64,000 nucleotides of DNA from Mycobacterium sp. (GTDB lineage Bacteria > Actinomycetota > Actinomycetes > Mycobacteriales > Mycobacteriaceae). The notes beneath the pieces are model-generated. The model made no database searches and was not told the DNA's origin. It saw nothing but the letters and a program-made list of their open reading frames with translations. The DNA is taken from the NCBI GenBank assembly GCA_018401645.1, contig JAGYKK010000005.1:1-64000 (forward strand), written 5' to 3'. The position numbers were made by a program, and so were the translations under genes. Below are positions 39,295 to 53,939 of the stretch, in pieces (the stretch's first letter is position 1; each line of letters begins with the position of its first letter).

Positions 39295-40887
39295 ATGACG
39301 TGGCTAGATTCGGCCACCCTGGTGCGCGGTCCTGCCGTTCCGCAACCATCCGACCTCTCACCTGGTTTTACCGACGCTCGATTCGTCGATGTCCTGATCT
39401 CCCACTGGCCGGTGTTCGCACTGCTCGCCGCAATCCTTGTGACCGCCGCCGGCACCGCGCGTTGGCGCCGGGGATCCGGGCGCGGTGAACCGGTTCCGGT
39501 GCGCGATGTCGCCGGTTGGGCGGCCGTGCTGATACTGCCGCCGCTGGTCTATGTGTTTGCGCTGGCCTCTGGGTTGAGTGTGCAGGCGTCGATCTTCGCG
39601 GCGCTACTGGGCGCCACGGTGCTGCTGTGGGTGTTCAGTCTGGTCGCGGAGTTCGTTCCGGCACTCGTCGCGGTCGTCGCGACACTGGTCATTGGGCTGG
39701 CCCCGCCGGACATCGCGCTGGCGGGGTTCTCCTCGCCGAGCCTGCTTTTGCTGCTCGGGGTTTACGCATTGTCGGCCGTGATCATCTCCTCCGGACTGAG
39801 TTACCGGCTGATCACCCGACTGCTGCTTCGACTGCCGGACAAGCCGGTCTGGCACCAGATCACACTGCTGGGTTCGGGTTACGTCCTCTCACCGCTGATG
39901 CCTTCGGCCAACGCTCGTCTCTCGTTGCTCACGCCGGTGTTCAAAGACATGGCCGCGGGCCTGAACCTGCCGGCGCGCGGTCCGGCTATCACCGGGTTGC
40001 TGGCCGCGATGTTCGGCGGCGCGCTGCTCTTCTCGCCGATGATGGTGACCAGTAAATCGTCGAACATCGCCGCACTGAGCTTGCTGCCACAGCAGGTGCA
40101 ATTTGAGTTCGCCGGTTTCTTCTGGCTCGTCGCGGCGGCGGTGGCGGCAATCGGGGTGACGATGGTGCACCTGCTGGTGCTGCCACGGATCTTCCCACCC
40201 GGAGCCCAACCGCCCCTGCCGCGGGAGCACATGCAGCACCGCCTAGCCGACATGGGGCCCCTAAAGCCGGCGGAATGGATCGCCGCAGGGGGATTCATCT
40301 TTTTCCTCCTCGGATCGGCGACAACCGGCTGGCACCACGTCAAACCGTCCTACCTCGCGGGGTGCGTGTTGCTGGCACTTCTGCTGACCGGAACGTTGCT
40401 GCGCAAAGGCTTTCAGCGCGAACTGGACTGGCCGATGATCGTTTTTCTCCTAGGCATCGACAGCCTGATGCGGATCATGAACCACCTCGGACTGGCGCAG
40501 TCCCTAGCCCGGGTGGTGGGCCATGTCTTCGACTTCGTCGACGGCCGAATCGGAGTCTTCATTCTCATCACACTGGTTGTCACGTTGGCCGTGCGTCTGG
40601 TTCTGCCGGTTACGGCAGGCATGCTCACAGCAGTCATCATTTTGCTGCCGGTCGCGGCCGCGCAGGGTATCCACCCCTGGATTTGCGTGTTCTGCGCTGC
40701 CGTGTTCAGTGACATCTCGTTCTTCCGCCACCAGGGCACCAACGGGATCATGCAAATCCGGGCCGCGGGTCTGTTCGAGGAAACCGACGAACAGTCATTT
40801 CTTCGGTACAACATGGTGATGAACGCGGCCCGGGTAGCGGTCGTCTTCGCGTCGATCCCGTGGTGGGGTTGGCTGGAGTTGCTATGA
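39295..40887 (+). CDS. DASS/SLC13-like permease (ArsB/NhaD-type membrane protein)
   Basis: A 530-residue integral membrane protein with about twelve helices and a duplicated layout: FSSPSLLLLLGVYALSAVI, GYVLSPLMPSANARLSLLTPV in the first half, and a matching SDISFFRHQGTNGIMQI in the second, resembling the paired SNT-type hairpins of divalent-anion symporters. The substrate may be a dicarboxylate, sulfate or another anion. Its last codons overlap by four bases with a gene for a membrane-anchored binding protein, an uncommon partner for this family. Confidence 0.7.
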   Translation: MTWLDSATLVRGPAVPQPSDLSPGFTDARFVDVLISHWPVFALLAAILVTAAGTARWRRGSGRGEPVPVRDVAGWAAVLILPPLVYVFALASGLSVQASIFAALLGATVLLWVFSLVAEFVPALVAVVATLVIGLAPPDIALAGFSSPSLLLLLGVYALSAVIISSGLSYRLITRLLLRLPDKPVWHQITLLGSGYVLSPLMPSANARLSLLTPVFKDMAAGLNLPARGPAITGLLAAMFGGALLFSPMMVTSKSSNIAALSLLPQQVQFEFAGFFWLVAAAVAAIGVTMVHLLVLPRIFPPGAQPPLPREHMQHRLADMGPLKPAEWIAAGGFIFFLLGSATTGWHHVKPSYLAGCVLLALLLTGTLLRKGFQRELDWPMIVFLLGIDSLMRIMNHLGLAQSLARVVGHVFDFVDGRIGVFILITLVVTLAVRLVLPVTAGMLTAVIILLPVAAAQGIHPWICVFCAAVFSDISFFRHQGTNGIMQIRAAGLFEETDEQSFLRYNMVMNAARVAVVFASIPWWGWLELL

Positions 40888-41915
40888 GGAAACCGGTTGC
40901 GACGAAACTCGTGAAGAACCTTCTCATCGGCGGCTTCATCGTGGCCTTCGTTGTGTTGCTCGGAGTCTTCAACGTGACCAAGCCACGGATACTCGTACTG
41001 CATTCGGCAGCGCCAGACTCACCGTGGGTGCAACAGGTTGACCGGGGTATGCGCGAGGCGCTCAAACAGAACCGAAGGCCGGTCAGCGTGGAGTGGAATT
41101 ACCTCGGCTTGGGTTCACCGACCGCCACCCGAAGCACCGAAGAGGCCCGGGCCCAGGCCCGTCGGGCTATCGAGCAAATGAACCCCGACGTACTGATCGC
41201 GGTGGACGATGAAGCGAACTCTCTGGTGGCACGGGACTACATCGGCCGTGAGACGCCGCGCATCCTGTACCTGTCGATCGACCGCACCCCGGCGGAGTTC
41301 GGCTACGCCGATGCGGCGAACGCGACGGGTATCGCGGAGCGAATGCCATGGGCGGCCGTTCGGGATGCGGTGACGGATCTGTTCCCCGGACGGTCAACGA
41401 CCATGGCGGTTGTCGGGATCGACAACGAAACCGATCGGGCCGAATTGGCGCAGTTGCAGGCCTTCGACTGGGGCCCGGTCACGGTCGAGACCACCGCACT
41501 CGTCGCGACGGCCGGGGCCTGGCGCGATTTCGTCGGCCGGTCGGCCGGGGCGGACGTACTTCTGGTGCTCGGTGCGCAGGATCTCCCCGACGAGGATGGC
41601 GCGGTGGTCACCGCGGCCGAACTCAATCGCTGGACTCAGGACAATGCGCGGCCACTGCCGATCGGCGTCCAAGGGGATTTCGTCGCCGACGGCGGCGGGC
41701 TGAGCCTGTCGCCGCCGCCGGATGACTACGGACAGCGTGCCATTCGTCTTGCCCTCGACTGGCTCGATGACCGGGCGACTCCCGGTCCGCCGTCACCGGT
41801 TGAGTCGTCGCACTTCGACGTCGCGGTCCGGCAGGCGCCGTTGGCACAGCGCGGAATCGTCCTGCCCCCCATCTACATCGAGGCGGCAAGAAGCAACGGC
41901 ACGCTCTTTCCCTGA
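40884..41915 (+). CDS. Membrane-anchored periplasmic-binding-like protein
   Basis: A 343-residue protein with one N-terminal membrane helix (LLIGGFIVAFVVLLGVF) and an extracytoplasmic two-lobed domain. ILVLHSAAPDSPWVQQVDRG, PDVLIAVDDEANSL and TMAVVGIDNETDRAEL follow the pattern of ABC-type uncharacterised substrate-binding proteins (PF04392-like). ATG 40884 overlaps the permease stop (ATGA), so the two are co-translated. No ATP-binding gene is near, which argues for a receptor working with the DASS-type permease rather than an ABC transporter. Confidence 0.68.
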   Translation: MRKPVATKLVKNLLIGGFIVAFVVLLGVFNVTKPRILVLHSAAPDSPWVQQVDRGMREALKQNRRPVSVEWNYLGLGSPTATRSTEEARAQARRAIEQMNPDVLIAVDDEANSLVARDYIGRETPRILYLSIDRTPAEFGYADAANATGIAERMPWAAVRDAVTDLFPGRSTTMAVVGIDNETDRAELAQLQAFDWGPVTVETTALVATAGAWRDFVGRSAGADVLLVLGAQDLPDEDGAVVTAAELNRWTQDNARPLPIGVQGDFVADGGGLSLSPPPDDYGQRAIRLALDWLDDRATPGPPSPVESSHFDVAVRQAPLAQRGIVLPPIYIEAARSNGTLFP

Positions 41916-41986: not shown

Positions 41987-42631
41987 GTGACCGCGCCGAC
42001 GACGAGACGAACGCGCACGCGGTCGGCGTTGCTCGTCGCGCTTCAGGAGTTGTTGCTCGATCCGAACGCCCCGGCCGTCTCCGTCCCCCAGGTGGTTAGC
42101 CGGTGCGGAGTCGCCCAGGGCACCTTCTACAACTATTTTGATTCCCTGCCTGAGGCCATCGACGCCATCGGCGCCTTGCTGCTCACCGAGCACACCCGGG
42201 TGCTGCAGATAGTCACCTCCGGCGCCGCCGATACGGCCGAGATCGTCGCGCGCTCGGCCCGCCAGACGTTGACGCTCGTCGCCCGCCGGCCCGATGTCGG
42301 CCGCCTGATGTTTGATTCCGGACTGCCGGTCGACCGGTTCGCCGGTGGTCTGCGCGGCCATTTCCACGACGACCTGAGGCTGGGGATAGACCGCGGCGAC
42401 TTCGCGGTCGCCGACTTCGATGTCGCGAGCACCGTCTATACCGGCACGATGATCGGCGCGTGCCTGGACCTGCACCGCGGCCGTCTCCTTACTGACTCCG
42501 TTCCCGACGTCGTGGGCTCCCTGCTGCGCGCACTCGGCGTCACCACACGCAAAGTGCATCGGCTCGTCACTGCACCGCAGGAGTTCATCCCGTGGGCACC
42601 GTTACCGCTATCCGCGATCGAAGGGATCTGA
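41987..42631 (+). CDS. TetR family transcriptional regulator
   Basis: A 214-residue protein. The N-terminal helix-turn-helix reads SVPQVVSRCGVAQGTFYNYFDSLPEAIDAI, quoted here as VAQGTFYNYF for the recognition helix region. The C-terminal half is a helical ligand-binding domain with no obvious subfamily. Start GTG 41987. It is the first gene of a four-gene unit with gaps of three bases or overlaps, and a palindrome that could be its operator precedes it. The natural inducer is probably the phenolic substrate of the downstream enzymes (inference). Confidence 0.9.
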   Translation: MTAPTTRRTRTRSALLVALQELLLDPNAPAVSVPQVVSRCGVAQGTFYNYFDSLPEAIDAIGALLLTEHTRVLQIVTSGAADTAEIVARSARQTLTLVARRPDVGRLMFDSGLPVDRFAGGLRGHFHDDLRLGIDRGDFAVADFDVASTVYTGTMIGACLDLHRGRLLTDSVPDVVGSLLRALGVTTRKVHRLVTAPQEFIPWAPLPLSAIEGI

Positions 42632-42634
42632 AAC

Positions 42635-43993
42635 ATGGCAGAACCGACACTGACGGCGGGTCGCGCCTTAAACCGTGACGACGCCGGTTACGAGACCGCC
42701 CGCCGCGACACGGTGTGGCGAACGAATATGCCGGATCGGTTCCCCGAGTGCATCGTGCAGGCCAACTCCGTCGGCGACGTGGTGGCCGCGGTACGGGCGG
42801 CGAAGGCCGAGGGTCGGCAGGTGGGCGTGCGCTCCGGGGGGCACAGTTGGTCGGCAAACCATGTTCGCGACGGCGGTGTGCTCATCGACGTGTCCCGCTT
42901 GAAAGCGTTCACGGTTGACAAGTCAGCGATGACCGCCACCGCCGAACCCGGTCTCGGCGGCAGCGTGCTGCTGGCCGAACTGATGAAGCGCGACCTATTC
43001 TTCCCGGTGGGCCATTGCCGCGGCGTGGCGGTCGGCGGCTACCTATTGCAGGGCGGTTTCGGGTGGAACGGACGCGCGTTCGGCATAGCGTGCTCGAATG
43101 TCATCGCCATCGACTACGTCGACGCCGACGGCGAGTTACGCCATGCCAGCGAAACCGAGAACACCGACATGTTCTGGGCCGCAAGGGGTTCGGGCCCAGA
43201 TTTCTTCGGTGTGGTGGTGCGATTCCACCTTCGCGTCTTTCCTAAACCCGGATTCATCGGGTCATACGTCACCACGTACCCGATAGAGCGGCTCGCTGAC
43301 TTTGTCCGCTGGGTGGACCGGGTAGGCCCGAGTGTCCCTCCCGGGGTGGAGATGCAGTTCGTCATCTCGCGCAGCCCCTCGTTCCCACCGCCGCTACGCT
43401 CACGCTCGGTCACATCGCCCGTGCTCATCGAGTTGGCCGCGACCGTCATGGCCGACTCCCGCTCGGAAGCTAAAGCCGCGACCGCGTACATGGCGGGTGC
43501 GCCGAAGGGCGCGCGGCTGCGCGTGCCACTGCTGTCCATGCCGATGTCGCTGATGTACACGGCAGCGATGCAGCACTACCCGGTAGCCAACTGGGAGACC
43601 GACAACCTCTGGACGCATGCCAGCGCCGACGAACTGCTACCGCACATCCAGCGCATCGCCGACACCGTGCCGGCCCCACCCGCGCATTTCTTGTGGCTGA
43701 ACTGGGCGCCGCAGGGAAACCTCCCCGACATGGCGTACACGGTGGAGGACAAGACATATCTCGCGTTCTACGGCGGCTGGCTCGACGGCGACGACGGCGC
43801 CGCCACCACCCGTTGGTCGCGCGACAACGCCGCAGCCATGGAGTCGCTATCGACCGGGGTGCAGTTCGCCGACGACCCTGGACGGCCCTCGCGCGGTATC
43901 TCCGAGGCTGCGCAACAGCGGCTTGAGTCGATACGCGCCGTGCACGACCCCGAGGGTCGCTTCAACCGATGGATCGGAGCTGTAAGCGCATGA
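42635..43993 (+). CDS. BBE-type FAD-linked oxidase with predicted bicovalent flavin
   Basis: A 452-residue oxidase of the berberine-bridge-enzyme/VAO family. His70 in VRSGGHSW is the usual histidyl-FAD attachment site, and Cys128 in PVGHCRGVAVGGYLLQGG sits at the cysteinyl position, so FAD should be attached twice, as in glucooligosaccharide oxidase and BBE. The C-terminal RFNRWIGA matches the BBE motif. No signal peptide. It oxidises an alcohol, sugar or phenolic, unspecified by sequence. Coupled by ATGA overlap to the PhlG-like gene. Confidence 0.9.
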   Translation: MAEPTLTAGRALNRDDAGYETARRDTVWRTNMPDRFPECIVQANSVGDVVAAVRAAKAEGRQVGVRSGGHSWSANHVRDGGVLIDVSRLKAFTVDKSAMTATAEPGLGGSVLLAELMKRDLFFPVGHCRGVAVGGYLLQGGFGWNGRAFGIACSNVIAIDYVDADGELRHASETENTDMFWAARGSGPDFFGVVVRFHLRVFPKPGFIGSYVTTYPIERLADFVRWVDRVGPSVPPGVEMQFVISRSPSFPPPLRSRSVTSPVLIELAATVMADSRSEAKAATAYMAGAPKGARLRVPLLSMPMSLMYTAAMQHYPVANWETDNLWTHASADELLPHIQRIADTVPAPPAHFLWLNWAPQGNLPDMAYTVEDKTYLAFYGGWLDGDDGAATTRWSRDNAAAMESLSTGVQFADDPGRPSRGISEAAQQRLESIRAVHDPEGRFNRWIGAVSA

Positions 43994-44814
43994 AACTACC
44001 CGCGGTCAAACCCGTGCCGGGACGTCGGTTGGGCTGGTCCGCCCACGAACTCGCGACCCTGCCCTACGCGCGGTTCTTCAACCCCGACATGGCCGACATC
44101 TCCGCCGACGCGCACCGAGCTGTGGCCAACAGCCCGATGGCCGAAGCGTTGTTCCCCCCGATGGCCGACGCCATCGGCAACATTCCCGACGCCGAGGTGC
44201 AGAACGGTTTCACCATCACCTCCGACGGCGCCATGCACGTGAACATCCTCACCGAGATGCCCGGCGTGACACCGGCGATGATCGACTGGTGGTTCGGCTG
44301 GCACAGCGACAGCCCCGACCGCTACAAGCTCTGGCATCCGAAGGCACACGTTCACGCTCAGTGGGCGGCGCTGCCGCCCAAAGGCACATCCGGCCGAGCG
44401 CGCTACGTCGGCTACACCTCCGAAGTCGACGAGTACCTCGGTAACACGATGATCCGGGGAGCCATCCAGTTCCGCCGGCCCGAGGAACTGGGTCTGGTAG
44501 GCGCCGCGGTCGCCGCCGGCGTGGACGCCCCCGCGGTGTGTGCCCGCACCGGCCTGGTGGACCTTCCGGTCGACATCGGCTATCTCGCGCACCATATCGC
44601 GGCCGTGCCCGGCGGCAGCGTGATGCGGTCACGCTTCTGGATGGGTGGACCCTACCTGGCGGCGCGCACGACCTCGTTGCGCGCGGCGGTACCCATCGCC
44701 AAACGCGTTGTCGGACTGAGCGAACTCGATGCCCGCGCACTACTGGTGCACTGCTCACAGGAGATGACTCACCTGGCCACCTTCCTGCCCGCGCTCTACG
44801 AACAGGAGTCTTGA
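43990..44814 (+). CDS. PhlG-like (2,4-diacetylphloroglucinol hydrolase family) C-C hydrolase
   Basis: A 274-residue protein resembling the DAPG/phloretin hydrolase family, zinc enzymes that break the C-C bond between an acyl group and an aromatic ring. WHPKAHVHAQW (His116, His120, His122) and the C-terminal HCSQEMTHL provide candidate metal ligands; MIDWWFGWHS is another family-like segment. ATG 43990 overlaps the oxidase stop. Adjacent flavin oxidase and DUF1330 genes suggest a small pathway for degrading or detoxifying an acylated phenolic. Family assignment is from remembered motif layout, so moderate certainty. Confidence 0.72.
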   Translation: MKLPAVKPVPGRRLGWSAHELATLPYARFFNPDMADISADAHRAVANSPMAEALFPPMADAIGNIPDAEVQNGFTITSDGAMHVNILTEMPGVTPAMIDWWFGWHSDSPDRYKLWHPKAHVHAQWAALPPKGTSGRARYVGYTSEVDEYLGNTMIRGAIQFRRPEELGLVGAAVAAGVDAPAVCARTGLVDLPVDIGYLAHHIAAVPGGSVMRSRFWMGGPYLAARTTSLRAAVPIAKRVVGLSELDARALLVHCSQEMTHLATFLPALYEQES

Positions 44815-44815
44815 C

Positions 44816-45181
44816 ATGGCGATCGACCCCCGCGGCGCCGACCTGAAGCGATTGCTCGTCGAAGACGACGGCGGCCCCTTCGTGATGCTGAATCTGTTGC
44901 GGTTCGCCGAGGGCAAACGCGAGCAGTATGACGAGTACGTTCGGCGGGCTGGTGAGTTCGTCACCCGCTATGGCGGCGAATCCGTCTACTACGGTGAGGG
45001 ATCCACGGCGTTGGTCGCCGAGGCGGGTCAGGAGTGGGACGCGGTCGTGCTGGTGCGCTATCCCAGCCGCGCGGCATTCAGCCGGATGGTGGCCGACCCC
45101 GAGTATCACCTCATCTCCCACCTCCGCACCGGGGCACTCACCGAAGCCGTGCTGCAGGCGACCACCCCTCGGGACCCCTAG
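44816..45181 (+). CDS. DUF1330-like ferredoxin-fold protein
   Basis: A 121-residue protein with an alpha/beta dimeric barrel pattern: PFVMLNLLRFAEG at the start and EWDAVVLVRYPSRAAFSRMVADPEY in the middle. DUF1330 and related ABM-type proteins often serve as small monooxygenases or isomerases in aromatic and polyketide pathways. ATG 44816 is one base beyond the hydrolase stop. It closes the TetR operon, five bases before a convergent antiporter gene. Confidence 0.78.
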   Translation: MAIDPRGADLKRLLVEDDGGPFVMLNLLRFAEGKREQYDEYVRRAGEFVTRYGGESVYYGEGSTALVAEAGQEWDAVVLVRYPSRAAFSRMVADPEYHLISHLRTGALTEAVLQATTPRDP

Positions 45182-50846: not shown

Positions 50847-52509
50847 CTAACGTTCCTTCACCCGGCCGTGGTCGACCACCCAGTACCGATCCAGTCGGAC
50901 GTTCTGCAACATTCGGCGATCGTGAGTAACCAGCAGCAGAGCGCCGTCGTACGTCTCGAGTGCCTGCTCGAGTTGCTCGATGGCGGCGAGATCGAGGTGG
51001 TTCGTCGGCTCATCGAGAACGAGCACATTCGTGCCGCCCGCCTGTAACAGGGCAAGGCCGGCGCGGGTTCGCTCACCGGGCGATAACTCGTCGACCGCGC
51101 GTTCCACATGGTCTGCGCGCAACCCGAACTTCGCCAGAAGGGTACGCACATCGGCGGTCGACCATGACGGCACCCGTTGCTCAAAACGGTCGACGAGTCT
51201 GCCCGGACCGGAGAACTCGGCGCGAACCTGATCGATCTCGCCGATGGCGACGTTGGCACCCAGGCTCGCCCGACCCTCATCGGGCTGTTGACGGCCGAGA
51301 AGCAGTCGCAGCAGTGTCGACTTACCCGCGCCATTAGGACCGGTGATACCGATCCGCTCGCCGGCATCAACCTGAATCGACACCGGTCCGAGGACAAAAT
51401 CCCCTTGCCGCACAACGGCATTAGCCAGAGTCGCGACCACCGAACTTGATCGGGGCGCAGATCCGATGGTGAACTCCAGTGTCCATTCCTTACGGGGTTC
51501 GTCAACTTCTTGGAGGCGGGCGATACGGCTCTCCATCTGGCGAACCTTCTGGGCCTGCTTCTCGCTGGACTCGGTGGCCGCGCGGCGCCGGATCTTGTCG
51601 TTGTCCGGAGACTTGCGCATCGCATTGCGGACACCCTGACTGGACCACTCCCGCTGGGTGCGTGCGCGGGCCACCAGATCGGATTTCTTGTCGGCGAACT
51701 CGTCGTACTGTTCTCGGCGGTGACGGCGGGCGACCTCACGCTCCTCCAAAAAGCTGTCGTATCCGCCGCCGAAGACGGTGGTGGTGTTTTGGGCCAGATC
51801 CAGTTCCAGAACCCGCGTCACACTGCGGGCGAGGAACTCGCGGTCATGACTCACCAGCACGACGCCACCGCGAAGATCGCGGACGAAGTCCTCCAGTCGT
51901 TGCAGTCCGTCGAGGTCGAGATCGTTGGTCGGCTCATCAAGGAGAACGATGTCGAAGCGCGACAGCATCAGTGCCGCCAATCCGACCCGCGCCGCCTGTC
52001 CGCCCGACAATGCGGTCGTTGTCGTCGATGTCGGGCTCACCGCGCCGCTGTGCAGACCCAGATCCGCCAGCACCGCGGGAATTCGGTCGTCGAGGTCAGC
52101 TGCGCCGGTGGCGAGCCAATGCTCCAATGCCACGGCGTAGGCGTCGGCCGGATCCGCGTCTGTTGGACCCTGGGCTGGGTCCGCTAACGCCGAGGCCGCG
52201 GCATCCATGGCACGAGTCGCCGCGGTGCACCCGGTGCGCCGCGCGATGTACGGCGACGGTCTCCCCGGGCACCCGTTGATGCTCCTGCGGCAGCCACCCG
52301 ACGAAGGCGTCGGCGGGTGCCGCGCTGACCGTGCCCTCCAGTGGCTCGACGTCACCGGCCAGGATCCGTAGCAGGGTGCTCTTACCGGCGCCGTTGGCGC
52401 CGACGACCCCGATGACATCACCCGGCGCCACCGTCAGGTCCACACCCTCAAACAGGGTGCGGTGGGCGAATCCGCCGGCCACGCCTTTGGCGACGAGCGT
52501 TGCGGTCAT
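50847..52509 (-). CDS. ABC-F family ATPase (Rv1473-like), one frameshift
   Basis: About 553 residues, soluble, two ABC domains and no membrane part. Domain one has GANGAGKSTLLRILAG, LSGGQAARVGLAAL and LLDEPTNDLDLDGL. A charged linker (RREQYDEFADKKSDLVARARTQ) follows. Domain two has GPNGAGKSTLLRLLLG, LSPGERTRAGLALL and LDEPTNHLDLAAI. The start ATG 52509 (MTATLVAKGV) and the rest are in different frames; joining GETVA to YIARRTGCTAAT near 52252 restores it. ABC-F proteins act on the ribosome, in translation control or protection from antibiotics; which applies here cannot be read from the sequence. Confidence 0.9.
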
Positions 52510-52563
52510 CGATCCATCGTCGCACCCGCGCCGCTGCCGCCGGGCTTCCCTACAGTACAAACC

Positions 52564-52854
52564 ATGGCCTTCACCCATGTAGTGACTTTTAAGTGGCTCG
52601 ATGACGACTTCGCCGACGGTGAGATCGCTGATGCTCTGCGCGGACTTGTCTCCGGTTTCGACGGCGTCCACAACTACCTGTGCGGATCCGATGTCGGATT
52701 CACCCCGTCGGCCTACGACTTCGCGGTGGTGGGTACGTTCGACGATCGCGAGTCCTTCCTCGCCTACCGCGATCACCCCGAACATCAGCGGATCCTCGCC
52801 GAGATGATCGCTCCAAATCTTCAATCCCGCCACGTCGTTCAACTGGAACATTGA
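52564..52854 (+). CDS. Dabb (stress-responsive A/B barrel) domain protein
   Basis: A 96-residue protein. FTHVVTFKWLDD, NYLCGSDVG and YDFAVVGTFDDRESFLAYRDHPEHQ follow the dimeric alpha-beta barrel domain, including the conserved HxxH-like ending. Members are small enzymes or stress proteins that bind hydrophobic ligands. ATG 52564 is divergent from the ABC-F gene with a 54-base gap. The next gene (HadAB-like) is 62 bases downstream. Confidence 0.85.
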   Translation: MAFTHVVTFKWLDDDFADGEIADALRGLVSGFDGVHNYLCGSDVGFTPSAYDFAVVGTFDDRESFLAYRDHPEHQRILAEMIAPNLQSRHVVQLEH

Positions 52855-52916
52855 CGCGGTTAGGGTGGCGGGGTCCGGCTTCAGCGAATGAGCCGACGGA
52901 ACAGTTGGGCGAATGC

Positions 52917-53939
52917 ATGACCGCAGCATCAGAGGCACCGGATCTCGAATCCCGGGTCGGCCACCACTATCAGATGGACGGCACCTATCTGGTCGGCCGC
53001 GAGAAGATCCGTGAGTATGCCCGCGCCGTGCAGGACTACCACCCGGCGCACTGGGATGTCGACGCAGCCAGGAAGCTCGGTTACCCGGAGTTGGTCGCAC
53101 CACTGACCTTCACCTCTACCCCGGGCATGTCCTGCAATCGACGGATGTTCGAGTCGGTGGTCGTCGGTTATGACACCTACGTACAAACTGAAGAAGTCTT
53201 CGAGCAGCACCGGCCCATCGTGGCCGGCGACGAATTGCATATCGACGTCGAGTTGACGGCGGTGCGCCGGATTGCCGGTCGGGATCTGATCACGGTGACC
53301 AACACGTTCACCGACGCTGCCGGGGAACGGGTGCACACCCTGCACACGACCGTGGTCGGCGTCACCTCCGAGGACATTAATCCGGCGGTCAAGGCGGCCG
53401 TGCAGAAAATGATGATGCACGACATGGACATCATGGCCGTTGGCGAGGGCGCCTACACCAAGACGGTCCGCGCCGGCAGCCAGGGCAGGATCGCCGACGA
53501 TGCGTCCCGGAGCCCCGGGACGGCGAACTTCGAGGACGTCACCGTCGGCGATGAGTTGGGGGTCCATCACACCCGGCTGTCCCGGGGCGATCTGGTGAAC
53601 TACGCCGGTGTGGCCGGCGACGCCAACCCGATCCACTGGGATGAGGACATCGCCAAACTGGCCGGCCTGCCCGACGTCATCGCCCACGGGATGCTCACCA
53701 TGGGCCTGGGTGCGGGCTTCGTCTCCGCCTGGACCGGCGATCCCGGTGCGGTCACCCGCTACGCCGTTCGACTGTCCGCTCCCGCGGTCGTGTCGTCCAA
53801 CGACGGCGCGGACATCGAGTTCAGCGGCCGGGTCAAGGCATTGGACCCGGCAACCCGAACCGGTGTCGTCCTCGTCGCGGCGAAATCCGACGGGCGCAAG
53901 ATCTTCGGCCTGGCGACGTTGGACGTTCGCTTCCGCTGA
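52917..53939 (+). CDS. Fused (3R)-hydroxyacyl-ACP dehydratase HadA/HadB-like
   Basis: A 340-residue double hot-dog protein. The N-terminal half resembles the HadA stability subunit (REKIREYARAVQDYHPAHWD). The C-terminal half is MaoC-like with the hydratase motif YAGVAGDANPIHWDED, where the Asp and His catalyse dehydration. Separate HadA and HadB work in the FAS-II cycle of mycolic-acid synthesis; the fused form occurs as a paralogue in several mycobacteria. ATG 52917 is preferred because MTAASEAPDLESRVG aligns with the domain start. Confidence 0.87.
   Translation: MTAASEAPDLESRVGHHYQMDGTYLVGREKIREYARAVQDYHPAHWDVDAARKLGYPELVAPLTFTSTPGMSCNRRMFESVVVGYDTYVQTEEVFEQHRPIVAGDELHIDVELTAVRRIAGRDLITVTNTFTDAAGERVHTLHTTVVGVTSEDINPAVKAAVQKMMMHDMDIMAVGEGAYTKTVRAGSQGRIADDASRSPGTANFEDVTVGDELGVHHTRLSRGDLVNYAGVAGDANPIHWDEDIAKLAGLPDVIAHGMLTMGLGAGFVSAWTGDPGAVTRYAVRLSAPAVVSSNDGADIEFSGRVKALDPATRTGVVLVAAKSDGRKIFGLATLDVRFR

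Follow-up and report, generated by a model that had tools for sequence, protein, structure and literature searches.

The window analysed here, a stretch of 64,000 nucleotides from a Mycobacterium sp. assembly, carries two adjoining genes, one encoding a permease and one a predicted extracytoplasmic binding protein (SBP). Their features are collected in Table 1. The preliminary description of this DNA had the two genes overlapping by four bases, and the ATGA at their junction agrees with that. Both genes are under purifying selection, with dN/dS values of 0.09-0.17.

Table 1. Features of the permease-SBP gene pair, in positions of the window.
Feature	Position	Strand	Basis and remarks
DASS/SLC13-fold permease gene	39295..40887	+	530 aa; Pfam, model, structure match
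First binding-site motif, P203-S204-A-N206-A-R208	39901..39918	+	Clade signature PSxN[AGS]R
Second clade signature, T252-S-K254-S255-S-N257	40048..40065	+	Alignment of pair permeases versus controls
GGAG, likely ribosome-binding sequence for the binding protein gene	40875..40878	+	Read from the sequence; within the permease gene, five bases upstream of the ATG at 40884
ATGA four-base overlap	40884..40887	+	Binding protein start codon and permease stop codon
Binding protein gene	40884..41915	+	343 aa; predicted extracytoplasmic type I, PF04392 superfamily fold
Binding protein N-terminal signal anchor (predicted)	40920..40976	+	Hydrophobic residues 13-31, net charge +4 before them, no lipobox

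The permease had been called DASS-type, and this was borne out. In Pfam it matches PF00939 at 84.2 bits (cut-off 27; E 1.3e-23) and, also above cut-off, CitMHS (E 3.1e-19), while its 71.8 bits against NCBIfam TIGR00785 (dass) lie below the subfamily cut-off of 198.6. A single-sequence search of the PDB gave no match, and a profile search succeeded. The AlphaFold model (mean pLDDT 80) has DASS structures as its best matches (AtDiT2.1, LaINDY, NaCT and VcINDY; TMq up to 0.75), and it also matches SiaQM, more weakly than these. The permease thus belongs to the DASS superfamily and stands outside the canonical subfamily. The mycobacterial form lacks a cNMP domain and has instead an N-terminal extension of about 70 residues that brings one additional predicted long helix.

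The permeases found in such pairs form a single clade with a binding-site signature of its own. PSxN[AGS]R (S204, N206, R208) is present in 30/30 pair permeases and K254-S255 in 29 of the 30; six control DASS carriers from the same sample (the weak permease matches L138-L143, with no SBP match alongside) have neither the asparagine of the first motif nor KS, and the lysine occurs in 0/6 of them. S204, N206, R208, K254, S255 and N257 are nearly invariant across the clade, which argues that the carrier site is maintained. In a HMMER alignment the first motif falls opposite PSNSAR of LaINDY, and hence at the site where the characterised carriers VcINDY and LaINDY bind substrate and sodium. The SNT-type substrate/Na+ motifs are absent in their canonical form, being replaced by PSxN[AGS]R and P[VLI]TAG variants and by Lys254, and therefore neither substrate nor ion can be transferred from the characterised DASS carriers. 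The lysine at K254 could stand in for a cation.

By itself the window binding protein has no family match in Pfam or NCBIfam, and a single-sequence PDB search was also empty. Its earlier assignment as PF04392-like was nevertheless upheld by two approaches: a profile of 17 relatives matches the PF04392-type structures 3lkv, 3lft and 6hni, and the model of the window protein (mean pLDDT 90, pTM 0.83), a two-lobed binding-protein fold, has 3lkv, 3lft (two chains), 6hni and 6hnj as its first five structure matches, at TMt 0.68-0.74. PF04392 itself is matched by 6/17 family members at E <= 0.01, with the L079 protein reaching 30.6 bits (cut-off 25.9). The membrane anchoring that had been proposed is in keeping with the hydrophobic N-terminal helix, a predicted signal anchor that is kept in 17/17 SBPs examined, none of which has a lipobox; in most of them the residues ahead of the helix carry positive charge. 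The anchor overlaps a conserved FN..KPR, which comes after the hydrophobic helix. N146, W213, W250 and GG270-271 are invariant in the 17 members, and the loops after the first strands differ from clade to clade. The binding proteins at L079:6999-8399 and L081:5296-6708 have a mid-protein insert of >100 residues, apparently a partial internal repeat, as the profile matches twice.

The preliminary description had allowed that the pairing might be seen only here; instead, we found 32 pairs in 31 genomes. These belong to freshwater mycobacteria and to several lineages of Pseudomonadota, with identities falling as low as about 25-30%. The conserved pairing across actinobacteria that it had proposed to look for did not appear: the pair is present in 4/149 genomes of the genus sample (the window and three more) and absent from the 199 other genomes sampled in the order, and the actinobacterial phylum sample returned the window alone, plus two weak matches. 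This rarity in the order and phylum samples speaks against an actinobacterial trait, and the pairing is mainly proteobacterial. A search with the window proteins also recovered the pair in further mycobacterial-type MAG contigs, and a Comamonadaceae contig carries it at 47/41% identity to them. Within that contig's family, the 251 genomes searched by profile included six with strong matches, 6/6 paired, counting L031, whose contig covers only the C-terminal part of the permease. In its class (321 genomes), independent searches with the SBP and with the permease converged on one set of five genomes with six loci. In its phylum (219 genomes), strong permease matches occurred in fourteen genomes, 14/14 with the SBP, a number that includes the starting genome and G1254, whose permease lies in two pieces on separate contigs.

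Strong matches were clearly set apart from weak ones, for the SBP as full-length matches >180 bits versus <120 and for the permease as >300 bits versus about 100 or less. Every strong SBP match adjoins a permease and every strong permease match adjoins an SBP, so that pairing tracks the strong class exactly. The weak SBP matches (below about 120 bits; L035-L043 and L082-L096) were rejected as extra pairs, having no clade permease nearby, and the four of them run against Pfam are ordinary PF04392 proteins. The sampled DASS permeases outside the clade and the sampled ordinary PF04392 proteins showed no pairing, and no permease-SBP fusion was seen among the pairs found. The four-base overlap is present in 27/32 pairs, and in the remaining five the SBP starts no more than 30 bases from the stop. 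One record titled as a Bifidobacterium breve MAG (L006, CAMDFY010000027.1) matches the mycobacterial window at its locus with 95-96% identity and conserved synteny, and is probably mislabelled or contaminated. Many of the mycobacterial-type carriers, among them the window genome (G000), G025, G128, G330 and G1389, have small assemblies, of 2.2-3.1 Mb, compared with most genomes of the genus sample, possibly reflecting a streamlined freshwater lineage or incompleteness.

Distances in the permease and SBP trees are correlated at r = 0.93 (0.94 without the mycobacteria), whereas 2000 shuffles reached 0.28 at most; these are raw values, with no correction for species phylogeny. In both trees alike, the mycobacteria lie beside one proteobacterial locus, L077, a position that suggests a joint move of the two genes into mycobacteria. 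Host phylogeny alone would not put the mycobacteria by L077 in both trees. The two genes are co-inherited, and the pair probably reached the mycobacteria by transfer, in a direction that we infer.

Clues to the substrate come mainly from two gammaproteobacterial loci, L079 and L081, in which genes for acetyl-CoA synthetase, malate dehydrogenase and two fumarase subunits lie downstream of the pair in the same orientation. This arrangement, found in these two loci only and the sole metabolic hint, fits a C4-dicarboxylate. The substrate is probably a small carboxylate, though the ligand named in the nearest solved PF04392-type structure to name one, 3lft, is tryptophan rather than a carboxylate lacking an amino group. 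The mycobacterial neighbours (a HIBADH-like reductase, a TetR regulator, an FAD oxidoreductase and a PhlG-like hydrolase) were discarded as a substrate clue, being common to the closest relative only. In the window, genes for TetR (TetR_C_40), an FAD-binding oxidoreductase, a PhlG-like protein (DAPG hydrolase) and DUF1330 follow one another at 41987-45181 and may form a cluster for the catabolism of aromatic compounds; all but the TetR gene adjoin the pair in L006 as well.

We lean towards the view that the two proteins form one transport system, in which a secondary carrier is served by a tethered binding protein. The permease would be an elevator-type carrier of the DASS fold, and the binding protein a Venus flytrap anchored to the outside of the membrane through its uncleaved N-terminal helix. 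In contact with the carrier, it would catch the solute, probably a small carboxylate, and pass it to the outward-facing form, import being driven by an ion gradient or by exchange and needing no ATPase. The gene overlap would fix the ratio of the two subunits. In proteobacteria, the cNMP-like domain at the permease N-terminus probably adds intracellular control, which would be gone in the mycobacterial form. We favour transport because the carrier-site residues, the two-lobed fold and purifying selection are all maintained.

The main rival, which we regard as unlikely, is that the tethered PF04392-type domain is a sensor that regulates the carrier or signals through it, as a transceptor complex, and delivers nothing. 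Several relatives adjoin signalling domains or are fused to one. The proteobacterial permeases run against Pfam have an N-terminal cNMP-binding domain above cut-off, and one (L078:7503-10040, 845 aa) is fused to an N-terminal 4HB_MCP sensory module as well. In L134:5300-14741 and L135:5227-14024, genes for dCache-SpoIIE-HATPase, STAS and class III cyclase proteins come after the pair, and in L030 a chemoreceptor gene does; these contexts, like that of L078, hint at regulation. Hybrid histidine kinase genes adjoin the pair in L131-L133, and some more distant PF04392-like domains sit in ORFs of 600-1100 aa, as in receptors. However, most pairs have no adjacent signalling gene, and the mycobacterial permeases, which by comparison have lost the cNMP-like domain, are paired all the same. 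Where present, that domain retains GEE but in most cases not the phosphate-binding Arg, making cyclic-nucleotide binding doubtful, and the carrier-site residues are conserved, as transport would need. Two small coiled-coil-like proteins precede the pair in L134 and L135, and upstream genes there resemble RND-type efflux genes in appearance.

PF04392 proteins typically serve ABC importers, as the family name says. The SBP might therefore work with an ABC permease and ATPase encoded elsewhere in the genome, where ABC ATPases do occur, and share only a messenger with the carrier. We think this highly improbable given the strict two-way linkage, the mirrored trees over two phyla and an SBP that is signal-anchored, with no lipobox, in Gram-negative hosts too. 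The absence of a nearby ATPase gene had been pointed out before and holds: within the 64 kb, ABC ATPase genes were found at 50847-53103 and nowhere else. They lie on the opposite strand at a distance of about 9 kb, beside an RF3 gene, and belong to a soluble two-domain protein. The consistently linked ABC ATPase that had been considered for relatives did not appear either, as a motif scan found no linked ABC importer at any pair locus and one ATPase-motif ORF across all of them, in an exporter-like region of L034. Less probable still is a structural or folding role for the tethered protein, as a subunit of the carrier with a ligand-free pocket. The overlap does suggest a fixed ratio and the loops after the first SBP strands do vary between clades, but the two-lobed hinge fold is kept and the residues listed above are invariant in all 17 members.

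Compared with the DASS carriers (LaINDY, VcINDY, plant DiT; TC 2.A.47, PF00939), the pair permeases have the same fold, length and overall helix plan, but they come obligately with an SBP, have PSxN[AGS]R and Lys254 in place of the usual forms, add a cNMP-like domain in proteobacteria and, in the window, score below the NCBIfam dass cut-off. TRAP systems (DctPQM, SiaPQM) likewise combine a binding protein with an ion-driven elevator carrier of related fold. Unlike them, the pair has no small Q subunit, and its SBP is of the PF04392 type, not DctP/TAXI, and tethered by a predicted signal anchor; the window permease matches PF00939 and CitMHS only, no DctQ gene lies beside the window pair, and DctM was matched only below cut-off, in two relatives. 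The PF04392 ABC_sub_bind proteins (3lkv, 3lft with Trp, 6hni CD0873) share the fold and a distant sequence similarity with the SBP, which differs in having no linked ABC permease or ATPase and a signal anchor with no lipobox.

The closest precedent is TAXI-GltS (BP0403-GltS of Bordetella pertussis), which was likewise first deduced from a pair of overlapping genes (PMC12344293). Both have overlapping SBP and secondary carrier genes, no TRAP membrane genes and a carrier predicted to be of the elevator type, but in TAXI-GltS the carrier is of the ESS family, the SBP is of the TAXI type with a lipoprotein signal, the overlap is 3 bases, and fusions are known, whereas none was seen among the present pairs (PMC12344293). 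Before TAXI-GltS (2025), the SBP-using secondary carriers known were TRAP and TTT only (PMC12344293). A binding-protein-assisted secondary transporter outside these two classes had been proposed for the window; the pairing and the lack of linked ABC importer genes support it, TAXI-GltS is a precedent for it, and delivery by the SBP is the part that we infer. The preliminary description had overlooked this precedent, as well as the cNMP domain and the mainly proteobacterial spread. The pair differs from TAXI-GltS in both partners and is not a TRAP, ABC or canonical DASS member, and our literature search, with subscription journals and preprints outside its scope, found no description of a DASS-SBP system. 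The best reading of the sequences is that the pair would constitute a fourth class of SBP-dependent secondary carrier, after TRAP, TTT and TAXI-GltS.

Further classes of SBP-carrier systems would test whether it is the elevator mechanism that permits SBP use (PMC12344293). Because the DASS elevator family shares its fold with TRAP, a DASS-SBP system is a natural test case, and the two partners are small enough to reconstitute. The tethered SBP would also show how such systems could work without a Gram-negative periplasm, here in mycobacteria. The pairing points to an undescribed two-part nutrient importer that needs no ATP, from a carrier family thought to act alone.
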